Shown here: one piece after another, positions 17,658 to 40,174 of the stretch
Numbering within the stretch: the first letter of the stretch is position 1
Layout of the letters: every line of letters starts with the position of its first letter
From: Thioalkalivibrio paradoxus ARh 1
Lineage (GTDB): Bacteria; Pseudomonadota; Gammaproteobacteria; Ectothiorhodospirales; Ectothiorhodospiraceae
DNA: 64,000 nucleotides
Assembly: GCF_000227685.2 (NCBI RefSeq)
Contig: NZ_CP007029.1
Location: forward strand, 1,214,501 to 1,278,500
Reading direction: 5' to 3'
Notes under the pieces: model-generated
Seen by the model: only the letters and a program-made list of their open reading frames with translations
Told to the model about the DNA's origin: nothing
The model's database searches: none
Program-made: the position numbers and the translations under genes

Positions 17658-18194
17658 ATGGAGCAGTCTGTTGCGATCAAGACATTGGCCGAGTGGGCCC
17701 GGGCTGGGCGCGTCGTGTTTACCGTGGGGGATCTGGCCAAGCTGTTTCCTGCGGACCAGCGGCGGACCCTGCTGGCTGCGCTCGGGAGGTTGGTGGACGA
17801 GGGCGTGCTGGCGCGGGCGTGCCGCGGTGTGTATGTGTATGTACTGACGGGCGATCCGGGTTCCGATGTGATCGAACGCATTGCTGTGGCCCTGCGCCGC
17901 GGCCACTACAGTTACACCAGCCTGGAATCGGCGCTGTCGGAGTATGGGGCGATTTCACAGATTCCGGTCGATCGCCTGACGGCCATGACGACGGGCCGAT
18001 CGGGCGTGTATCGAACGCCCTGGGGCACCATTGAATTCACCCATACCAAGCGGTCACCGGCCGATATTCTGGAAAATACGCGCCTAGTGGGCCGGCCGCT
18101 ACGCATGGCCACACCGCAAGCGGCCTGGCGTGATCTCAAGCGGGTGGGCCGCAACACCCATCTGGTCGATGCGCGGGCCCTGGCCGATGACTGA
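17658..18194 (+). CDS. AbiEi-like antitoxin of a type IV toxin-antitoxin system
   Basis: A 178-residue protein. The N-terminal winged-helix part (about residues 1-80) has FTVGDLAKLFPADQRRTLLA and a GVLARACRGVYVYV strand pair. The C-terminal part contains HYSYTSLESALSEYGAISQI and ends TPQAAWRDLKRVGRNTHLVD. This layout matches AbiEi-type antitoxins, which repress their own operon and counter the nucleotidyltransferase without direct binding. It overlaps the toxin start by 8 bases. The ATG at 17658 follows the -10 element; the frame is open further upstream through the transposase scrap but without family resemblance. Confidence 0.8.
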   Translation: MEQSVAIKTLAEWARAGRVVFTVGDLAKLFPADQRRTLLAALGRLVDEGVLARACRGVYVYVLTGDPGSDVIERIAVALRRGHYSYTSLESALSEYGAISQIPVDRLTAMTTGRSGVYRTPWGTIEFTHTKRSPADILENTRLVGRPLRMATPQAAWRDLKRVGRNTHLVDARALADD

Positions 18195-19083
18195 CCGGGT
18201 CGATTTCGCCGCGCTGACGGCTCGGGCGATGGCGCAGTCGGGTCGTGGCCACATGCGCCCGGTGATCGAAAAGGAACTGCTGCACTACGACATCCTGTTC
18301 GGGCTCGACCGCGACGGGCTGCTCGATGAGTTGACGTTTCAGGGCGGGACGGCGCTTCGTCTCTGCTACGGCTCACCCCGTTTCAGCGAGGATCTGGACT
18401 TTGCCGGCGGGCGAGACTTTTCGCGCGCGCGGGTCGACGGCATCAGGGCCGCACTGGAAGCCTACATCGGCCAGCGCTATGGCCTCGAGGTGATCGTGCG
18501 TGAGCCGGTCGAGCTCGTCGATGATCCGGGCCACCGCGGCATTCATGTCGGCACCTGGCAGATCGCGATCATCACCGCACCCATAGGGCCTGATATTCCG
18601 CGGCAGCGGATCAAGCTCGAAATCGCCAATGTCGAGGCCTATTCTCGACAGCCGCGCAGCCTCCGTCTCAACTATGACTTTCTGCCCGATGGCTACGGCG
18701 ATACGCTGGTGTTGGCCGAATCGCTGGATGAGATCATGGCCGACAAGCTGGTGTCGCTGGTCAATAATCAGCGCTACGTGCGCCATCGGGATATCTGGGA
18801 TTTGCGCTGGCTCAAGCAGCAGGGGGCGGCGGTCAATCCGGGGTGGGTCGCAAGCAAGATCGAGGACTACCGCATCACCGACTACCGCGACCGGCTGGAC
18901 GACCTGCGCGCCAGACTGCCTGCCATCGTCCGTAGCGCTGCCTTTGCCCAGGAAATGAACCGCTTTCTGCCGGTTGACGTGCAGCAACGAACCCTTGCAA
19001 AACCCAAGTTCCTGGATTTTCTTGCCAGCGAGATTGATGGTCTGCTGACAACGGTTCGGAGCGCGCTACAGTCTGGGCGATGA
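18187..19083 (+). CDS. AbiEii-like nucleotidyltransferase toxin
   Basis: A 298-residue protein with the AbiEii/DUF1814 core. The motif FQGGTALRLCYGSPRFSEDL followed by DF (residues about 45-66) is the GG(T)xL...R(F)SxDxDF signature of the nucleotidyltransferase active site. ESLDEIMADKLVSL and RDIWDLRWL form the later helices typical of the family. Relatives transfer nucleotides to tRNA or other acceptors and stop growth. The start ATG 18187 lies within the antitoxin's last codons. The 3' end and the 30 bases after it are duplicated as a scrap at 29528-29670. Confidence 0.87.
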   Translation: MTDRVDFAALTARAMAQSGRGHMRPVIEKELLHYDILFGLDRDGLLDELTFQGGTALRLCYGSPRFSEDLDFAGGRDFSRARVDGIRAALEAYIGQRYGLEVIVREPVELVDDPGHRGIHVGTWQIAIITAPIGPDIPRQRIKLEIANVEAYSRQPRSLRLNYDFLPDGYGDTLVLAESLDEIMADKLVSLVNNQRYVRHRDIWDLRWLKQQGAAVNPGWVASKIEDYRITDYRDRLDDLRARLPAIVRSAAFAQEMNRFLPVDVQQRTLAKPKFLDFLASEIDGLLTTVRSALQSGR

Positions 19084-19221
19084 AATGCGATGTCGACAAG
19101 GACGATCAGCAGAACCGGTCCGGCGGATGCCGCGCAATCGGCCTCGGGCTCCAGGCCGGTTTCGCGGGTGTAGCGGGCGCGCAATTGCCGGGCAGGTCAC
19201 CTGTTCGCCACCCTGAAATCC

Positions 19222-19812: not shown

Positions 19813-20105
19813 ACGGGGTCAGACCTTGCCTTATGCCTCGTCGATGCATAGTGGGCTTTCCAGGGATGGACGCAGGGGGCCCGAGGGGGGCTCGACCGTC
19901 ACGTGCGGAGTATCCATGGACGCTGGATCACGTGACGGCGCGTGGTAACCGGCGAGGCCGGATCTACCTTGACGAAGCGGATCATCGGCGGTTCGTCGAG
20001 ACCTGGCGCAAGCGGTGCAGCGGTTCAACCAAGTGCTCTCGGCGTACTGCCTGATGGGCCACCACTACCAGGTGCTGGTGGCGAAATCTGACCCCATGGG
20101 TGACC
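19813..20105 (+). pseudogene. REP-associated tyrosine transposase (RAYT-like) relic
   Basis: Across frames one reads SRAEYPWTLDHVTARGNRRG, then RIYLDEADHRRFVETW, then QRFNQVLSAYCLMGHHYQVL. This is the N-terminal third of a Y1 transposase of the RAYT group (usually RIEYPGALYHVTARGNRR ... YCLMxNHYHLL). The HUH-type pair HYH is degraded to HYQ. GGGGTCAGACC at 19814 and TCTGACCCC at 20088 form inverted ends. RAYTs mobilise REP-like palindromes, so this relic may be linked to the palindrome arrays of the island. Confidence 0.65.
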
Positions 20106-23025: not shown

Positions 23026-23292
23026 TCATCGTTTCTGAACATCCTCCGCGAGCCATGCCTTGATCAGGGACTGATAGGGCATGTCCCGCCGATTCGCCTT
23101 GATCTTGATCCTCTCGAGCAAGGCGATGGGCAGGCGCAGGGAAATGGTCTTGGTCGAGGGCTTGAGATTCGGGAGGCTGACGTTTTGTGCCGCATCCCAG
23201 TCAACGTATTCGCTGGAATCGTGGCTCTCCCAGAAGGCGCGCTCGTCTGCCTCCGTTCGAAACTCAGGTCTGGCTTTCGGATGTTTGGTCAT
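23026..23292 (-). CDS. BrnA/CopG-type antitoxin (second type)
   Basis: An 88-residue protein. The N-terminal part has DERAFWESHDSSEYVDWDAA, and the DNA-binding part STKTISLRLPIALLERIKI followed by RRDMPYQSLIKAWLAEDV, a pattern common for antitoxins of BrnT-like toxins. It is the second gene of the operon and overlaps the toxin end by 29 bases. Its last 55 bases are duplicated as a scrap at 28363-28421. Confidence 0.85.
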   Translation of the reverse strand: MTKHPKARPEFRTEADERAFWESHDSSEYVDWDAAQNVSLPNLKPSTKTISLRLPIALLERIKIKANRRDMPYQSLIKAWLAEDVQKR

Positions 23293-23578
23293 GGATGGCT
23301 CTCTCTTTGCGATGCATGTCTCGGGCGGAAATCACGCGGATCAGGGTGTTCGCAGCGCGCAGGGTGAAGCTGACGTGGAGCCTCCGTCCGTCGTCGGTGA
23401 TGCCCAGTGCGTGATAACGCGGATCCAGCGCGCTGTGTTTCGGGTCGGCGACCACGAGTAGCGGTTGGTTGAAGGAGACCTGCTCGGCCTCCGCCTGGCT
23501 TACGCTGTGCTTGTCGACGCTCTTGCGGGAATTCCCTTCATCCCAGTCGAATCCCCTGACATCGGCCCAATCGATCAT
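23264..23578 (-). CDS. BrnT-like toxin (second type)
   Basis: A 104-residue protein starting at ATG 23578. GFDWDEGNSRKSVDKHSVSQ matches the BrnT start (FxWDxxNxxKxxxKHxVxxxEAE). DPRYHALGITDDGRRLHVSF and a final VISARDMHRKERAIH follow the family. It is convergent with the first brnTA pair, so two different BrnT systems lie end to end. Confidence 0.87.
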   Translation of the reverse strand: MIDWADVRGFDWDEGNSRKSVDKHSVSQAEAEQVSFNQPLLVVADPKHSALDPRYHALGITDDGRRLHVSFTLRAANTLIRVISARDMHRKERAIHDQTSESQT

Positions 23579-23582
23579 CAGC

Positions 23583-23603
23583 TGTATATTGCCACCATAT
23601 ACA
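23583..23603 (-). promoter_or_regulatory. Candidate operator of the second brnT operon
   Basis: TGTATAT-TGCCACC-ATATACA is a perfect 7-bp inverted repeat just upstream of the toxin ATG, in the position of the core promoter. Confidence 0.5.
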
Positions 23604-23639
23604 CATGAAGCCAAAGACGGGAAACCGGGGCCGATTCAT

Positions 23640-26870: not shown

Positions 26871-26927
26871 GTCCGTACTATACCACTTAGTGCAACTTGG
26901 CACCAAGCCACGACTGAACTCGCTACG

Positions 26928-26995
26928 TGGTCGCTGGGCAGTGCGTCTTGCGCTACGACAACGAGGCCGGGAAGGGAGACCACCGGCACCGGCGC
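26928..26995 (+). pseudogene. tumE-like gene scrap
   Basis: GTGCGTCTTGCGCTACGACA and the bases around it repeat 39640-39703 of the intact tumE-like gene with a single visible difference. It encodes QCVLRYDNEAGKGDHRH. Nothing else of that gene is here, and the sequence switches at once into the relic of another antitoxin. Confidence 0.8.
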
Positions 26996-27136
26996 TCGAC
27001 GTACTGTTGGATGGCTTCGAGCATGATCCAGTGCGGCGAGCGACGGCGCTGACTGGCCAGTTGCTGGACGCGCGCTTTCAGTGTGTCGTCGATCTTGAGA
27101 GACGTGGCCGTGGAGGACCTCTTATCGCGTAGTAAT
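26996..27136 (-). pseudogene. Ribbon-helix-helix antitoxin relic
   Basis: On the minus strand one reads TATSLKIDDTLKARVQQLAS, then RRRSPHWIMLEAIQQYVER, the N-terminal half of a CopG/ParD-like antitoxin (SLKLDDxLKxRVQxLAxxRxRSPHWIMxEAI). The C-terminal half has been replaced by the tumE scrap at about 27000. No partner toxin is present. Confidence 0.7.
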
Positions 27137-27418
27137 ACCTTTCGATACGCTAGCGCCTTAAGGCCTTCGAATCCATCGCGGCGCGGTTCCGGATCGCGTT
27201 CCATGTCCGCGCGCCGATGCGCGCAGGCGCGCACTCAAGGATGGGCGGCCCAGGGCGGCGAGCGGGACTCGCACCCCTCAGTCACTGCGAGCCCGTACCG
27301 CCGATCCGTCTGTGGTCGGATTCCACCGAGGCCCTTGAGGGACTTACGGTGCGGGATCAAGGGACAGGCCAGGTAGCCTGACACTGGGGCTTGGAACGAC
27401 CCAGAAGGTTCAGATCCG
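27137..27418. other. Gap with no recognised gene
   Basis: Only a broken repeat arm (TCACTGCGAGCCCG at 27281) stands out. The rest shows no conserved protein segment. Confidence 0.4.
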
Positions 27419-27452
27419 TTGACACGAATCTGGTGTTGCACTAATTTCGTGT
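27419..27452 (+). promoter_or_regulatory. Leaderless vapB promoter with operator
   Basis: TTGACA (27419-27424), a 17-base spacer and TAATTT (27442-27447) place the transcription start at about the ATG 27455. The inverted repeat ACACGAA (27422-27428) and TTCGTGT (27446-27452) spans both promoter elements. Confidence 0.6.
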
Positions 27453-27454
27453 TC

Positions 27455-27697
27455 ATGAAAAACATCACCATCACGTTGGACGAGGAAACAGCGCGCTGGG
27501 CCCGAATCGAGGCTGCGAAGCGTGATACCAGCGTTTCACGGCTCGTTGGCGAGATGCTTCGGGAGCGTCGGGAAAAGGAATCCGAGCGCCGCGCGGCCTT
27601 GGAACGGTACATGGCCAGGCCGCGAGTGGCATTGAAGGATGCCGACTCGGGTTATCCCTCCAGGGAGCAGTTGTATGACCGACCGGTACTTCGTTGA
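27455..27697 (+). CDS. Ribbon-helix-helix antitoxin, VapB/CopG-like
   Basis: An 80-residue protein starting at ATG 27455. MKNITITLDEETARWARIEA, then RDTSVSRLVGEMLRER, is a ribbon-helix-helix fold. The C-terminal tail ending GYPSREQLYDR is typical of antitoxins paired with PIN toxins of the following type. It overlaps vapC by 23 bases. The in-frame ATG count and the promoter fit favour 27455 over upstream codons. Confidence 0.87.
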   Translation: MKNITITLDEETARWARIEAAKRDTSVSRLVGEMLRERREKESERRAALERYMARPRVALKDADSGYPSREQLYDRPVLR

Positions 27698-28109
27698 CAC
27701 CAACGTACTGGTCTATGCGCGGGATGCGAGCGAACCCCACAAGCATGCGCTGGCCGTCGAGTGGATACACACCCTCTGGAACCGGGGCGCAGGGCGGCTC
27801 AGCTTTCAAGTGCTTCAGGAGTATTACCAGGTCGTGACGCGCCGTCTCTCGCCCGGTCTCGATCCGGAGATGGCTCGGGCCGATATCCGCGATCTGCTCA
27901 CATGGCAGCCGGTACCGATCGATTCAGTGGTACTCGAGGCCGCCTGGTCAATCGAAAAGCGATTCGGCCTCTCCTGGTGGGACGCGCTGATCGTCGGCGC
28001 GGCAGGCGTCGCGGAATGCCATTACCTCCTCTCGGAAGATCTTCAGCACGGCCAGGATCTGAACGGGATTATCGTGCTGAATCCCTTCGAAACGGACCGG
28101 CCCTCGTAG
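27675..28109 (+). CDS. PIN-domain toxin, VapC-like
   Basis: A 144-residue protein. YFVDTNVLVYARD, FQVLQEYYQVVTRR, LSWWDALIVGAA and LLSEDLQHGQ supply all four acidic positions of the PIN active site. It is closely related in plan to the PIN toxin at 20118, but that one has an Asn at the fourth site. The start at ATG 27675 lies inside the antitoxin. The stop is followed by about 250 bases of unassigned sequence. Confidence 0.9.
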   Translation: MTDRYFVDTNVLVYARDASEPHKHALAVEWIHTLWNRGAGRLSFQVLQEYYQVVTRRLSPGLDPEMARADIRDLLTWQPVPIDSVVLEAAWSIEKRFGLSWWDALIVGAAGVAECHYLLSEDLQHGQDLNGIIVLNPFETDRPS

Positions 28110-28362
28110 TCGGCTCCTCCCAACGCCCCAAGTACATCCGATACCCAATCGCCCATAGGCCGCCAGGAGGGTGGCCTCGAGTGGTGGGAGCGGCTTCCGG
28201 CCGCGATGCCGCGTCGCGCGATGCCCAGCTCCCACCGCGATGGCCAGACGCCGCTCCACCGGCAGTTTGTGCCGGCGCCTTGAAAAAGGGCTCCGACGGT
28301 GAAGCGGGTTGGGCATGGCTACGGGAACCGGGTCCTCGGGGTCGCGCCGTCGGGTCACATTC
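28110..28362. other. Unassigned gap after vapC
   Basis: No conserved protein segment is visible. The stretch is G+C-rich and not built from the known repeats. Confidence 0.35.
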
Positions 28363-28421
28363 ATCGTTTCTGAACATCCTCCGCGAGCCATGCCTTGATC
28401 AGGGACTGATAGGGCATGTCC
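28363..28421 (-). pseudogene. BrnA/CopG antitoxin 3' scrap
   Basis: ATCGTTTCTGAACATCCTCC through GATAGGGCATGTCC repeats 23029-23083, the 3' end of the antitoxin at 23026-23292, without change. It carries the same stop codon and the last 15 or so codons. It lies directly next to the 88-base inverted-repeat element. Confidence 0.85.
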
Positions 28422-28890
28422 TGTATGCGCCGATCACAGCGCCGTCCCCCCGGCCGCGTCTCCTTGCAGGTCCGCGGCAAATAACCGCGGGTTTTCGTCG
28501 GCGCATACACGGGGTGATGGCCGGTACTGGGGAGTCCCGGAAGTCGCGCACGTTTCGGGTGACGACGGCATCACAGCCGGCTGACTCGGCAGCGGCCGCT
28601 ACAACCGCGTCTTCGAAATCGGGCCAGCCGAGTGTGTGAGCCCGCATCAGCTCGGCCTTGCCAACGGTTGCGACGTTGAACCAGTCCAGCAGCCATCCAA
28701 TGACCTTGGAGGCCGTCGCCTGATCCAGATGGCGGCTCACGATGAAGTGGATGGTCGTCATCGCATGGGCGGGTAAGGCTGCAGCGATCTGCCGCCGGAC
28801 GATTCGATCCAGAACGGTCGCTGAGGCCTGGTAATGGGGTTGCCGCTTCTGGATGACATCCAGAACGATGTTGGTATCCAGCAGAATCAT
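28399..28890 (-). CDS. PIN-domain toxin with replaced C-terminal tail
   Basis: The 163-residue frame begins MILLDTNIVLDVIQKRQPHY; WPDFEDAVVAAAAES and VVTRNVRDFRDSPVPAITP complete the PIN domain by about residue 126. The last 37 residues are arginine-rich and come from the 88-base inverted-repeat element and the antitoxin scrap. The original 3' end was therefore probably lost, but the catalytic positions are intact. It overlaps the antitoxin stop at 28887-28890. Confidence 0.8.
   Translation of the reverse strand: MILLDTNIVLDVIQKRQPHYQASATVLDRIVRRQIAAALPAHAMTTIHFIVSRHLDQATASKVIGWLLDWFNVATVGKAELMRAHTLGWPDFEDAVVAAAAESAGCDAVVTRNVRDFRDSPVPAITPCMRRRKPAVICRGPARRRGRGDGAVIGAYRTCPISP
28422..28509. repeat. 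88-base element with perfect 12-bp inverted ends
   Basis: TGTATGCGCCGA (28422-28433) and TCGGCGCATACA (28498-28509) are perfect reverse complements. Inside, CCGCGG-CAAATAA-CCGCGG is a second hairpin followed by GTTTTC. The element disrupts the expected end of the PIN gene on the minus strand. It may be a small non-autonomous element or a terminator structure. Confidence 0.5.
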
Positions 28891-29129
28891 CGATGCTTGG
28901 ATTCCAGGTGCCGTCGATATTCCGCCTTGGCATCAACATCCGCTGGCGCCAGGGCCGTCAGGAACTCGACCTCTGGCGAAAGTGCCTGCGGTTCCCGCGA
29001 ACGCATCCGACGCAGGTAGCGATCGATCACCTCGGTGACCGTGAGGCCATGGGCCCTGGCATACGCCTTGGCGAACTCCACGTCTTGCTTGGGCAGGCGC
29101 ACGGTCAGTTTGGCGGTTTCGCCTTCCAT
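28887..29129 (-). CDS. DUF6364-like antitoxin
   Basis: An 80-residue protein from ATG 29129. ETAKLTVRLPKQDVEFAKAY, then HGLTVTEVIDRYLRRMR, is a ribbon-helix-helix fold, followed by an acidic tail with EVEFLTALAPADVDAKAEYR that would hold the PIN toxin. The longer frame upstream of the ATG reads through elyC sequence and is not part of the gene. It overlaps the toxin by 4 bases (ATGA). Confidence 0.82.
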   Translation of the reverse strand: MEGETAKLTVRLPKQDVEFAKAYARAHGLTVTEVIDRYLRRMRSREPQALSPEVEFLTALAPADVDAKAEYRRHLESKHR

Positions 29130-29253
29130 GTGGGGCTTCCTCGGGTACGGCTGGTTCCAAAAAATTGTACGGCAGGCGATGCGGTCGTGCACCCGGACTG
29201 CCCACCAAGGCAGTGCTGGAACGTGCCTTGTGCGCGAATGGGGAGCGGTGGCC

Positions 29254-29522
29254 GGTGGATACCGCGCAGGAGGCGTACGCGGTGCGGGAGTTCCTGGGCA
29301 CGGAGACGCGCTTCTTCCTGGTGACGTCGGCCTCGCACATGCCACGCTCGGTGCGGCATTTCGAGCGGGTGGGGCTGGCGCCGATTCCGGCGCCGACGGG
29401 GTTCAAGACGGGCAGCGAGCGGGTGCGGACGCTGGCGTATTGGGTGCCTTCGGCTGGGAACCTGGGCAAGACGGAGCGGGTGGTGCACGAGTATCTCGGA
29501 CTGCTGACGTTGGAGCTCGATT
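29254..29522 (+). pseudogene. elyC fragment, C-terminal third joined to abiEii scrap (fragment D)
   Basis: It encodes DTAQEAYAVREFLGTETRFF, then SASHMPRSVRHFERVGLAPI, and SAGNLGKTERVVHEYLGLLT, about the last 90 residues of elyC, in the allele type of copy 3. At about 29522 the final residues are replaced by the 3' part of the abiEii gene. Confidence 0.82.
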
Positions 29523-29527
29523 TGAAG

Positions 29528-29670
29528 TGCAGCAACGAACCCTTGCAAAACCCAAATTCCTGGATTTTCTTGCCAGCGAGATCGATGGTCTGCTGACAAC
29601 AGTTCGGAGCGCGCTGCAGTCTGGGTGATGAAATTCGATGTCGACAAGGACGATCAGCGGAGCCGGTCCT
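29528..29670 (+). pseudogene. abiEii 3' end and flank, duplicated scrap
   Basis: The bases CAGCAACGAACCCTTGCAAA onward repeat 18982-19118 with few changes, covering the last 34 codons of the abiEii gene and about 35 bases beyond its stop (GATGTCGACAAGGACGATCA). In the original copy this flank leads to elyC fragment B; here it leads to repeat array A. Confidence 0.85.
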
Positions 29671-29742
29671 GCAGATGCCGTTGACGGTCCCCAAGGGGCG
29701 GAGGCCATTTTGGGCGATGACAGAGCCTCGCGATGACGGTAG

Positions 29743-30272
29743 GGGCTTGATGACCGTCACTGCGAGCCCCTGTCATTGCGAGGCCGAAGGCCGCGGCAAA
29801 CTGGCGTGGCAGTCCACACGCCGGCTGGATCGCCACGGGCCTTCGGCCCTCGCGATGACGGTGGGGGTTGGTGCCGTCACTGCGAGCCCCTGTCATTGCG
29901 AGGCCGAAGGCTGCGGCAAACTGGCGCGGCAGTCCATGCGGCGGTTGGATCGCCACGGGCCTTTGGCCCTCGCGATGACGGTGGGGGGTAGGGCCCGTCA
30001 CTGCGAGCCCCTGTCATTGCGAGGCCGAAGGCTGCGGCAAACTGGCGTGGCAGTCCATGCGCCGGCTGGATCGCCACGGGCCTTTGGCCCTCGCGATGAC
30101 GGTGGGGGTTGGTGGCCCGTCACTGCGAGTCCCGAAAGGGCGTGGCAGTCCATGCGGCGGCTGGATCGCCACGGGCCTTCGGCCCTCGCGATGACGGGTG
30201 GGGGTTGGGGGCCGTCACTGCATGCCCCGCAGGGGCGCGGCAGTCCAATTGCAGCAATGGGCCAAGGAGGGC
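29743..30272. repeat. Palindromic repeat array A
   Basis: Four full units of about 120 bases and a fifth cut by the GIY-YIG gene. A unit reads CGTCACTGCGAGCCCCTGTC, ATTGCGAGGCCGAAGGC, GGCAGTCCA, then GGATCGCCACGGGCC and CTCGCGATGACGGTGGG. The outer arms CGTCACTGCGAG and CTCGCGATGACG are inverted, and GGGCCTTCGGCCC is an inner hairpin. The left half holds a nested second arm, making these units longer than those in arrays B and C. Confidence 0.85.
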
Positions 30273-30276
30273 CGGT

Positions 30277-30564
30277 ATGAAGCAGCCATGCGTGTACATG
30301 ATGACGAACCGCCGAAACGGCACGCTGTACGTTGGGGTTACCAGCAACCTAGTACAGCGGGTCTGGCAGCACAAGTCCGGGGTCGTTGAAGGTTTCACGA
30401 AACAATATTCTCTGCACCGGCTGGCTTGGTTCGAGGTACACGAGACGATGGAATCCGCCATCTCCCGCGAGAAGCAACTTAAGGCCGGGAACCGGAAACG
30501 GAAACTGCGGCTCATCGAGGCGCTGAATCCGGACTGGCGAGACCTGTACGCCGACATCCTTTGA
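30277..30564 (+). CDS. Small GIY-YIG nuclease-domain protein
   Basis: A 95-residue protein starting at ATG 30277 behind GGAGG. CVYMMTNRRNGTLYVGVTSN contains the VYM...LYVGVT core (GIY-YIG equivalents), then VQRVWQHKSG with the conserved Arg, and the late glutamate helix AISREKQLKAGNRKRKLRLI with N-P-DW close by. It belongs to the widespread small UvrC-N-terminal-like group. It is the only intact gene within the repeat arrays and interrupts a repeat unit on both sides: the left ends at GGCAGTCCAATT and the right resumes at GCCCCGCAGGGGCG. Confidence 0.9.
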   Translation: MKQPCVYMMTNRRNGTLYVGVTSNLVQRVWQHKSGVVEGFTKQYSLHRLAWFEVHETMESAISREKQLKAGNRKRKLRLIEALNPDWRDLYADIL

Positions 30565-30569
30565 ATGGT

Positions 30570-31147
30570 GGTGTCAGCCCCGCAGGGGCGCGGCAGTCCA
30601 TGCGGCGGCTGGATCGCCACGGGCCTTTGGCCCTCGCGATGACGGGTGGGGGCTAAGGCCCGTCACTGCGAGCCCCGCAGGGGCGCGGCAGTCCATCCGC
30701 CGGCTGGATCGCGGCGGGCCATTGGCCCTCGCGATGACGGTGGGGGGTAGGGCCCGTCACTGCGAGCCCCGCAGGGGCGCGGCAGTCCATGCGGCGGCTG
30801 GATCGCCACGGGCCTTTGGCCCTCGCGATGACGGGTGGGGGCTAAGGCCCGTCACTGCGAGCCCCGCAGGGGCGCGGCAGTCCATCCGCCGGCTGGATCC
30901 CCACGGGCCTTTGGCCCTCGCGATGACGGTGGGGGCTAAGGCCCGTCACTGCGAGCCCCGCAGGGGTGTGGCAGTCCATGCGCCGTGTGGATCGCCACGG
31001 GCCTTTGGCCCTCGCGATGACGGTGGGGGCTTTGTGGCCGTCACTGCGAGCCCCGCAGGGGCGCGGCAGTCCATGCGCCGGCTGGATCGCCGCGGGCCTT
31101 CGGCCCTCGCGATGACGGTGGGGCTCCGCCTCTCGCGATGACGCGTG
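30570..31147. repeat. Palindromic repeat array B
   Basis: Units of about 92-97 bases start near 30575 (partial), 30661, 30758, 30849, 30945 and 31040. They share CACTGCGAGCCCCGCAGGGG, CGGCAGTCCA, GGCTGGATCGCCACGGGCC and CTCGCGATGACGGTGGGG. Inner hairpins are GCCCCGCAGGGGC and GGGCCTTTGGCCC. Spacers between units are only 8-15 bases. Confidence 0.88.
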
Positions 31148-32815: not shown

Positions 32816-33025
32816 ATTATCGCCTCGTGGCGCTGGACTCAGGCGTGTTCGAGCGAGCCGCAGCAGTGGCTGCTCACGCGTCGTACCCGCCTGAGGACGC
32901 TGGACGCCCTGCATCTGGCCTGCGCCGAGGCCAGCGAAGCGCCCTTGCTGACCCTCGATCAGGAACTCCTGGCGTCAGCGGAGTTTTTCGGCGTCGCTAC
33001 GTTTTCCGATTTCAAGCCCGAGTAG
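32816..33025 (+). pseudogene. PIN-domain toxin 3' relic
   Basis: In the frame ending at 33025 one reads RRTRLRTLDALHLACAEASE, then PLLTLDQELLASAEFFGVAT, the last third of a PIN domain (LRTLDALHLA ... LLTxDxxLxxAAxxxGV). The N-terminal part with the first acidic residues is missing, replaced by elyC copy 4. Confidence 0.75.
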
Positions 33026-33295
33026 CGTTCGCGAGCAGGGCTCGCTCCTGTCCGTAATCTCGTCCCGAGCATGGCTCAGCCAATGAGCGGATTCCGCTCA
33101 GAATGACGAGGAACCCAGGATATTCTGTCCAGGGGTCGTTGGTTTTTTCTACAGATCTCCGGGCGACGTCGATTTCGAGCTGGAAGCAGCCTGAATCGCC
33201 CGGCCAGGGGTCAGACTCCCGGTGCGCACATGGATGTTGGGCGAATGGGACGATGGCATCTAGTTCTCGCACATGCTGACCGGCGCGGTCGGCTG
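33026..33295. other. Gap with tumA-like scrap and broken repeats
   Basis: CGTTCGCGAGCAGGGCTCGC at 33027 is a half palindrome of the TAGGAGCG family. At 33166-33222 GTCGATTTCGAGCTGGAAGC and the following CGCCCGGCCAGGGGTCAGAC repeat 40109-40160, the 3' end of the tumA-like gene and its flank. No gene is complete. Confidence 0.65.
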
Positions 33296-34230
33296 GCGCG
33301 GCCCGTCACTGCGAGCCCCGTCCCACCCGCGTCACTGCGAGCCCCCCACCGCCTCCGTCACTGCGAGCCCCGCAGGGGCGCGGCAGTCCACGCGCCGGCT
33401 GGATCGCCACGGGCCTTCGGCCCTCGCGATGACGGTGGGGCATTGTGGCCGTCACTGCGAGCCCCGCAGGGGCGCGGCAGTCCGCGCGCCGGCTGGATCG
33501 CCGCGGGCCTTTGGCCCTCGCGATGACGGTGGGGCTTTGTGGCCGTCACTGCGAGCCCCGCAGGGGCGCGGCAGTCCACGCGCCGGCTGGATCGCCACGG
33601 GCCTTTGGCCCTCGCGATGACGGTGGGGGTTGGTGGCCCGTCACTGCGAGTCCCGAAAGGGCGTGGCAGTCCATGCGGCGGCTGGATCGCCACGGGCCTT
33701 CGGCCCTCGCGATGACGGTGGGGGTAGGGCCCGTCCACTGCGAGCCCCGAACCGCCTCCGTCACTGCGAGCCCCGAACCGCCTCCGTCACTGCGAGCCCG
33801 GAGGGGCGTGGCAGTCCATGCGCCGCTGGATCGCCACGGGCCTTGGGCCCTCGCGATGACGGTGGGGGTGGGGTCCGTCCAATGCGAGTCCCGAACCGCC
33901 TCCGTCACTGCGAGCCCCGCAGGGGCGTGGCAGTCCATCCGCCGGCTGGATCGCCACGGGCCTTCGGCCCTCGCGATGACGGTGGGGGTAGGGCCCGTCC
34001 ACTGCGAGCCCCGAACCGCCTCCGTCACTGCGAGCCCCGCAGGGGCGTGGCAGTCCATCCGCCGGCTGGATCGCCACGGGCCTTCGGCCCTCGCGATGAC
34101 GGTGGGGGTAGGGCCCGTCCACTGCGAGCCCCGAACCGCCTCCGTCACTGCGAGCCCCGGAGGGGCGTGGCAGTCCATGCGCCGCTGGATCGCCACGGGC
34201 CTTCGGCCCTCGCGATGACGGTGTGCCAGC
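33296..34230. repeat. Palindromic repeat array C
   Basis: Eight full units start near 33356, 33450, 33543, 33640, 33787, 33900, 34021 and 34141. Between them lie short left-arm-only units of about 26 bases (CACTGCGAGCCCCGAACCGC) at 33304, 33330, 33733, 33757, 33867, 33989 and 34109. The block from about 33900 to 34140 contains two nearly identical 121-base composite units (full unit plus short unit), so part of the array grew by tandem duplication. Confidence 0.88.
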
Positions 34231-37840: not shown

Positions 37841-37847
37841 AAAGTTA

Positions 37848-37955
37848 ACGTGAAATGACAGCCACAGAAGGACACGGAAATCACGGAATATGAAACAAAT
37901 CAAGCCTTTTTTCGTGTCTGTCCGTGCCTTCCGTGACTCGCGTTTTCGTTTCGCA
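37848..37955. repeat. CACGGA repeat with inverted arms, copy 2
   Basis: GTGAAATGACAGCCACAGAA, GGACACGGAAATCACGGAA, then TTTTTTCGTGTCTGTCCGTG and CCTTCCGTGACTCGCG form an imperfect inverted repeat. It begins with the same GTGAAATGACAGCCAC as copy 1. Confidence 0.7.
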
Positions 37956-38030
37956 GAGGCAGCCCGCACCATGAGGGTTTGAAGCAGTTCCGTGGCAGTA
38001 TGTTGGGCATTCGTTCAAGGAGCAGATCTG

Positions 38031-39522: not shown

Positions 39523-39795
39523 TTGCTGCTCCATGAGCGCCACCAGATCAGCCAGGATTCCTTCGCGGAGCTACGCGTCTGGCGGGTTCCCTCTCCGGTA
39601 CGCGGTTCCGCTCATGTGTACAAGTACAGCCTCGCCTACGTGGTCGCCGGGCAGTGCGTCTTGCGCTACGACAACGAGGCCGGGAAGGGAGACCACCGGC
39701 ACCTTGGGCCGAACGAGGTTGCTTATTCCTTCCGTGACCCAGCGCAGTTGTTGAACGATTTCTGGTCCGATGTCGATCGATGGAGGGCGCGATGA
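39523..39795 (+). CDS. TumE-like toxin (DUF6516)
   Basis: A 90-residue protein. LLHERHQISQDSFAELRVWR, then SAHVYKYSLAYVVAGQCVLR and YDNEAGKGDHRHLGPNEVAY match the DUF6516/TumE group (RVWxVPxPVxGSxHxxKYxL ... YDNExGKGDHRH). Only a TTG (39523) is available as a start in this frame after the upstream stop at 39475, which suggests either a weak start or a truncated N-terminus. It overlaps the HTH gene by 4 bases. Part of it is duplicated as a scrap at 26928. Confidence 0.75.
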   Translation: MLLHERHQISQDSFAELRVWRVPSPVRGSAHVYKYSLAYVVAGQCVLRYDNEAGKGDHRHLGPNEVAYSFRDPAQLLNDFWSDVDRWRAR

Positions 39796-40136
39796 TGAAC
39801 AAGGTAACGCTGACGGTCTCGTCCCGCGAGGCCGTGACCAACCGGACGCTGGCGGCCTTTCATGGGGAACCGCAGGGTGCCGTGATTTCCTTTGCATCGC
39901 CGGAACTGCTCTGGCAGACGTTGACCCGCAAGCGCTGGGAGTTGCTCAAGGCCATGACGGGTCGTGGCCCGATGACGATCCGCGCGCTGTCTCGTGAGCT
40001 AGGCCGGGATGTGAAGGGCGTGCACGGAGACGTGCATGCGCTCCTTGATGCGGGTGTTCTGGATCGAACCGAGGAGGGGCGGATCCTGTTCCCTTACGAT
40101 GCCGTGCGCGTCGATTTCGAGCTGGAAGCAGCCTGA
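39792..40136 (+). CDS. HTH antitoxin of the HVO_A0114 family (TumA-like)
   Basis: A 114-residue protein from ATG 39792. VISFASPELLWQTLTRKRWE, then LLKAMTGRGPMTIRALSREL and GRDVKGVHGDVHALLDAGVL, is a winged helix-turn-helix with the GRDVKxVHxDVxxLxxxGL signature. It regularly follows TumE-type genes and serves as antitoxin and repressor. The end VRVDFELEAA and its flank recur as a scrap at 33166-33222. Confidence 0.85.
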   Translation: MMNKVTLTVSSREAVTNRTLAAFHGEPQGAVISFASPELLWQTLTRKRWELLKAMTGRGPMTIRALSRELGRDVKGVHGDVHALLDAGVLDRTEEGRILFPYDAVRVDFELEAA

Positions 40137-40174
40137 ATCGCCCGGCCACGGGTCAGACTCCGGTTCGAAGCCCC

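Follow-up and report, generated by a model that had tools for sequence, protein, structure and literature searches.

Toxin–antitoxin gene scraps in a DUF218 repeat array of Thioalkalivibrio paradoxus ARh 1 as probable remnants of duplicated cassettes

Introduction

Chromosomal toxin–antitoxin (TA) genes can lose their function or some of their parts and persist as remnants, and passages of one account (PMC2654758) give ccdO157 of E. coli as an example of such a decaying chromosomal TA locus. If a TA remnant is taken to be a piece with homology to an intact TA gene and a broken coding sequence, then the scraps which we describe here are TA remnants as well. They differ from decay of the ccdO157 type in two respects: one repeat array contains, directly adjoining each other, remnants of several TA families that are unrelated, and one of these remnants can be traced to a second copy which a sister species has kept. 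A second likeness is to the TA cassettes of superintegrons and the stabilisation model built on them, in which many TA modules lie among repeats in one plastic chromosomal region (same passages of PMC2654758). In our case, however, the integron-type integrase lies 1.1 Mb away, a simple scan detected no attC-like sites, the joints do not resemble those of integrons, and the repeats are copies of a DUF218 gene together with a palindromic element. Finally, homology-facilitated illegitimate recombination likewise gives low-homology joints beside long blocks of homology, but in PMC3240628 it is described for incoming DNA, whereas the best-documented scrap of the present locus is a resident remnant.

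The stretch analysed here, called the window throughout, comprises the 64,000 nucleotides at positions 1214501-1278500 of contig C1 in the closed 3,756,729-base genome of the soda-lake bacterium T. paradoxus ARh 1 (G000 in our genome set). Among the matches listed for the open-licence PMC literature, no report of a TA array of this kind in Thioalkalivibrio was found, and the word "toxin" does not occur in the main text of PMC5328954, as far as the available part of that text goes.

Results and Discussion

DUF218 copies alternate with TA modules in two sister genomes

From 11437 to 32816, the plus strand of the window carries an array in which copies of a DUF218 (PF02698) gene, some of them fragmentary, take turns with TA modules. 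All nine DUF218 matches of the genome are placed on the plus strand at 11.4-32.8 kb of the window, four of them being full or nearly full copies and five being fragments. Every fragment examined, in the window as well as in the closed sister genome G010 (4,002,350 bp), lacks the 5' part of the gene, and none among them keeps the 5' end while bearing a long 3' truncation. The named record nearest to the local DUF218 protein comes from a Thioalkalivibrio MAG (72%). Between or beside the DUF218 copies, and up to 40.1 kb, Pfam searches recognised a lone ParD and twelve TA-like pairs, namely MqsRA, AbiE, PIN/DUF6364, TacA/GNAT, two BrnT modules, MazE-like/PIN_3, RelE/HTH, a PIN pair, PIN_3/DUF6364, PIN_3/DUF2281-like and TumE/TumA (the MazE-like, DUF2281 and one DUF6364 match being below Pfam's cut-off). 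Two cassettes located among the scraps, at 27390-28163 and 28510-29220, have relatives in another member of the genus, G027.

The sister genome carries 17 DUF218 matches at 655-712 kb, again all on the plus strand. Its main syntenic blocks with the window are 0.8-7.6 kb long, 95-99% identical and collinear; between them, cassettes present in one genome are absent from the other, and the CopG/BrnT block occupies a different place in G010 than in the window. Direct duplicates are found in G010 as well: 2865 bp (MqsRA and DUF218), 767 bp (PIN/DUF6364), 1101 bp (part of AbiE) and 2129 bp, the last having both ends in DUF218 pieces and no match to the TA proteins of the window. Of the other 28 genus genomes searched, 20 gave a DUF218 match, and these were distant (30-37%), with closer exceptions in G014 (72%) and G023 (64%). 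A general association of DUF218 with TA genes was considered and rejected: when 28 window proteins (DUF218 plus 27 TA or neighbouring proteins, the PIN fragment described below not being among them) were used as tblastn queries, six named loci from other organisms, L043-L048, matched DUF218 alone. The same 28 proteins found no match by tblastn in six control regions of the ARh 1 genome.

Two further elements of the region should be mentioned. The palindromic repeat, about 90 bp long, forms dense runs at 29726-31123 and 33300-34223 and is present in high copy in both genomes. A short open frame at 19833-20054 has no Pfam match; we take it to resemble the start of a REP-associated transposase.

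Four scraps match intact TA modules of the window

Comparison of the window with itself, followed by alignment, confirmed the four pairs of scrap and intact gene which the initial annotation had named. A scrap of a tumE-like toxin gene (26919-26990, plus strand) is an internal piece covering codons about 37-60, with neither gene end kept, and aligns with 39631-39703 over 73 columns at 97.3% identity (E 2.5e-27). A scrap of a tumA-like antitoxin gene (33159-33219, plus strand) consists of the last 35 nt of the gene and 25 nt of its 3' flank, and is 95.1% identical to 40102-40161 (E 3.5e-19). The counterpart of both is one intact module of TumE and an HVO_A0114-type, TumA-like protein, assigned by Pfam, at 39523-40136 on the plus strand. 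On the minus strand, a CopG antitoxin scrap (28361-28421), made of the stop codon and 58 nt, is 100% identical over its 61 bp to 23026-23086 (E 1.3e-24), within an intact BrnT toxin/CopG antitoxin module (23026-23614, minus strand, Pfam). The longest scrap, of abiEii (29522-29680, plus strand), holds 110 nt of the 3' end of the gene and 49 nt of flank and matches 18974-19132 over 159 bp at 93.1% (E 1.3e-62); the intact AbiEi/AbiEii module to which it is related lies at 17661-19083 on the plus strand (AbiEi_4 and AbiEii in Pfam). With lengths of 61-159 bp, identities of 93-100% and E values from 1e-19 to 1e-62, these pairs are far beyond chance, and all four scraps are direct (plus/plus), that is, in the orientation of their intact counterparts.

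It had also been proposed that each scrap keeps the 3' end or flank of its source. This is true of the CopG, tumA and abiEii scraps; as a rule it had to be abandoned, being contradicted by the internal tumE piece and by the RHH antitoxin piece described below, which keeps a 5' half and the upstream region instead.

At the DNA level, the genome holds three matches to the TumE/TumA cassette, two to the CopG cassette and two to the AbiE cassette, in each case only the intact module and its scraps, and no extra copies of these cassettes were found elsewhere in it. The same kind of search in G010 returned one match each for tumE, tumA and CopG, this being the cassette itself, and no counterpart of the scraps. 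The tumE scrap is tied, at 97.3% to both the window copy and the G010 copy; the tumA scrap is 95% identical to the window copy and 90% to that of G010, and the CopG scrap 100% to the window copy, 98% to G008 and 96.7% to G010. These three scraps diverge by 0-5%, much as the two species do in their main syntenic blocks (1-5%), and their divergence gives no date. Dating by shared derived sites resolved abiEii alone: the CopG differences are private to G010 or to G008, those of tumA are non-informative, and tumE is tied.

A second AbiE of the sister genome is orthologous to the abiEii scrap

The abiEii scrap follows directly upon a DUF218 fragment (29252-29521, plus strand, gene positions 490-759), to which it is fused. 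A DNA search of G010 found three copies of AbiE, at 669.7-671.4, 692.0-693.1 and 710.2-711.8 kb, one of them being a full copy additional to the 1101-bp direct duplicate; a fourth match to the query, of 51 bp, falls in the query stretch just before the DUF218 piece. The 692-kb locus keeps AbiEi residues 125-177 and 296 of the 297 AbiEii residues (about 1.1 kb of AbiE). The alignment of the scrap with this copy does not end with the scrap but extends to about 30152, window 29522-30152 being 92.9% identical to G010 692991-693594 over 632 bp, downstream flank included. Farther downstream, the window has a GIY-YIG gene (30277-30564, plus strand) in synteny with G010, where the GIY-YIG gene beside the 692-kb AbiE copy shows 99.4% DNA identity to it over 335 bp; a second GIY-YIG copy, at 715.6 kb of G010, shows 97.3%.

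Single sites point the same way. The scrap shares 155 of 160 sites with the 692-kb copy, 152 of 160 with the 711-kb copy and 148 of 159 with the window's own abiEii, and the latter is identical to its G010 ortholog at 159 of 159 sites. Because of this last identity, the 11 differences between the scrap and the window gene must predate the split of the two species. As the scrap is nearer to the 692-kb copy and shares its flank, it is to be regarded as a remnant of an older, second AbiE and not as a copy of the window gene, which is its paralogue and not its parent. Judged from these alignments, the abiEii scrap is what a deletion left of the second AbiE copy, joined to the DUF218 fragment.

Two earlier expectations have to be revised here. 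One was that the intact sources of the scraps all lie in the window; the abiEii scrap is not descended from the window abiEii. The other was that a scrap closer to cassettes of other genomes than to those of the window would imply independent import. The abiEii scrap is indeed closer to two G010 copies (97.7% and 96.3% over 219 bp, against 93.1% to the window), yet it does not speak for import, being an ortholog of a copy that G010 still largely has. As for the remaining scraps, tumE is equally close to both, and those of tumA and CopG have their nearer match in the window, though over about 60 bp. The case is a warning that the parent of a scrap may be another copy than the one which matches it best within a window.

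An orphan antitoxin half adjoins the tumE piece

The tumE scrap had been reported to be fused to half of an unrelated antitoxin, and this proved correct: its partner, on the minus strand at 26992-27182 (the end being approximate), comprises the upstream region and the N-terminal half of a gene for an RHH antitoxin, in which the RHH_1 domain is still complete (E 6.5e-7) while the start codon and the C-terminal half are lost. At the DNA level it is 98% identical to G018 over 123 bp and 89% to G016 over 149 bp, and it was matched in seven genus genomes (G002, G004, G007, G016, G018, G021 and G022), in all of which the homology starts at 26992 or 26993. In the two relatives that were read through (G018 and G021), an antitoxin of 90 aa is followed by a ParE-type toxin (ParE_toxin E 3.6e-13 and 1.2e-11). 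A DNA search found no intact RHH source in the ARh 1 genome, which is a second exception to the supposed presence of all sources in the window, and the piece is therefore debris of a module seemingly without another copy here.

A similar orphan is the rear part of a PIN-domain gene (32817-33040, plus strand), which adjoins the tumA scrap and is joined to a DUF218 copy close to the 3' end of the latter. Its PIN domain (E 9.5e-5) is just under Pfam's cut-off; an intact relative of 144 aa occurs in G005. At the DNA level it is 92% identical to G010 661014-661236 (92-95% in G010), and a further DNA match lies in L043, about 6 kb from the DUF218 gene of that locus. A DNA search with its first 208 bases gave no second match, and no intact source, in its own genome. 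Immediately downstream, at 33042-33116, there is a 74-bp element that occurs also at 1805608 and 3569241 of the same genome and in other genus members.

The joints show little or no homology

Joints were inspected by eye and scored only where both parents are known, which gave six in the window, one in G016 and one in G010, eight in all; three of the nine window joints (left of tumE, left of CopG and right of tumA) and the joint of a tumE deletion in G015 were left out, a parent being missing or unclear. No overlap was seen at the DUF218/AbiEii and DUF218/PIN joints, nor at the tumE/RHH joint and the joint after the PIN fragment, the latter two having one extra base each. Overlaps of 3 bp and 5 bp were found at the CopG/repeat joint and at the left end of tumA, of 3 bp at an AbiEi/TumE fusion in G016, and of 2 bp at the left end of the truncated AbiE in G010. 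Thus, four of eight joints overlap by at least 2 bp, for which a simple random-join model gives a chance of about 0.025; this is a weak excess of microhomology in a sample that was not blindly chosen and in which some parents have diverged.

End joining by Ku was rejected as a source of such joints: none of the 30 genus genomes has a Ku match over the cut-off, with two weak sub-threshold matches in G027 and G028, in a search whose controls comprised 14 genomes with B. subtilis positive. Taken together, the joints and the lack of Ku matches over the cut-off speak for a process that involves hardly any homology or none, either illegitimate deletion or template switching.

Other members of the genus, too, carry the TA modules dealt with here in broken form. 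In G016 (L103, contig C128, 817-1549), an N-terminal part of AbiEi is fused to the rear of tumE, which is followed by tumA, the joint being the same kind of chimera in another species. In G027 (L099, contig C108, 796-3302), abiEi is split by about 2.2 kb which contains a 158-bp piece of the tumA downstream region and whose ends bear hairpins, presumably akin to IS200/IS605 ends. In G015 (L104, contig C7, 1544-2257), a stretch of 154 bp resembling window 37844-37996 interrupts tumE, in which there is a further internal deletion.

The scraps are probably remnants of extra cassettes

We consider it likely that the scraps are remnants of extra TA cassettes, which were duplicated and then eroded by illegitimate deletion within the DUF218 array. 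In such a course, direct duplicates of TA cassettes would arise, recombination between direct DUF218 repeats being the most likely way; the redundant copy would be dispensable and could be worn down by deletions and joinings for which hardly any homology or none (0-5 bp) suffices and no Ku is required. Such deletions and joinings would place the ends of unrelated cassettes side by side. A direct "before" state exists for one scrap, abiEii, for which loss from a longer copy at the same place is seen; the tumE, tumA and CopG scraps are without a sister counterpart, and they, the RHH half and the PIN fragment may have followed the same course of duplication and erosion. That DUF218 repeats drive the duplication is suggested by the ends of one block, the 2129-bp duplicate of G010. 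The direct orientation of all DUF218 pieces of both genomes, and of all four scraps, supports the reading of duplication followed by erosion. The initial annotation had placed the copying or deletion within this same region; local duplication and deletion are indeed favoured by the direct orientation of the scraps, by the DNA searches, which found no further copies of the cassettes elsewhere, and by the duplicated cassettes of the sister array, while the source assigned to one of the four scraps, abiEii, was wrong.

Another explanation is that short pieces were copied directly, by template switching or as filler DNA during break repair, so that no whole extra cassette was ever there. Three scraps would suit it: CopG, tumE and tumA are 61-73 bp long, are cut at both ends and have no G010 counterpart, the CopG scrap is 100% identical to the window copy, and the joints show little homology. 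On the other hand, the sole scrap with a comparable sister locus, abiEii, is a deletion remnant; direct copying would give both orientations, yet all four scraps are direct; and duplicated cassettes are common in the sister array. We thus hold this explanation to be unlikely, though the strongest competitor of duplication followed by erosion.

Separate import on foreign DNA, by recombination with homology on one side and a random join on the other, is a good deal less probable. It would account for the RHH half and the PIN fragment, which are related only to other genomes (98% to G018 and 92-95% to G010, respectively), as well as for the G027 relatives of the cassettes at 27390-28163 and 28510-29220 and for the different TA content of the two closed genomes. 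It agrees poorly with the tumA and CopG scraps, which are closest to copies in the window, and with the abiEii scrap, an old resident in synteny.

It is very improbable that the scraps are functional, as they would be if, for instance, the RHH half acted as an orphan repressor that binds DNA or the CopG tail were active as a small peptide. The RHH half does keep its complete domain, and the CopG scrap contains an in-frame ATG followed by 18 residues; however, the RHH start codon is lost, the other scraps yield short peptides only, and the tumE, tumA and CopG pieces are absent from the sister. Probably the scraps do nothing.

A site-specific cassette system of the integron type, with the scraps marking its recombination sites, can practically be dismissed, since the genome has an integrase-type gene (2413512-2414454, the single integrase_gron match over the cut-off, with 10 weaker matches also outside the window) but this gene is remote from the array, neither GTT nor AAC occurs in the 8 bases around any of the nine window joints, several joints lie inside genes, and a simple scan found no attC-like site in the window (nor any near the integrase, so that it had no positive control). 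The integrase gene itself is apparently in two frame pieces.

The window is only modestly enriched in dispersed repeats

Counted strictly, with the surroundings of DUF218 masked and the abiEii pair consequently dropped, dispersed low-copy repeat pairs of at least 40 bp number 10 in the first 60 kb of the window. Six control regions of 60 kb each from the same genome have 7, 5, 3, 5, 3 and 2, and the G010 stretch, divided into two halves of 60 kb, has 17 and 1. When DUF218 copies and tandem repeats were kept, the looser count was 27 in the window against 12, 4, 0, 14, 0 and 2 in the controls, and 45 and 2 in the G010 stretch. The strict density is about twice the control mean (10 vs 4.2), a modest enrichment, and the idea of a scrap "hot spot" was rejected on this ground.

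What the scraps may tell about TA arrays

A further reading concerns the array as a whole. It could be an integrase-free array in which TA modules placed between direct DUF218 repeats punish deletion of their own segment, so that erosion needs a second copy of the antitoxin; since each module would punish the loss of its segment, the DUF218 repeats would persist. We put this forward as a rather doubtful proposal. It agrees with the presence of intact AbiE, TumE/TumA and BrnT/CopG modules in the window. The RHH half and the PIN fragment, of which the searches gave no intact copy, run counter to it, except if in their case the toxin had been lost beforehand. The agreement is biased, since comparing a sequence with itself can reveal a scrap only where its intact counterpart is also there. 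If the proposal were true, the scraps would record which locks were opened by duplication.

What we describe is genome erosion of an ordinary kind, well preserved in a plastic region with many TA genes, and gene debris of this sort is in itself nothing unusual. The value of the case lies in the two closed sister genomes, which hold the "before" and the "after" of one TA locus, so that one can follow in them how a duplicated cassette turned into a scrap. It thereby becomes possible to test whether a TA module can be deleted as soon as there is a second copy of its antitoxin.
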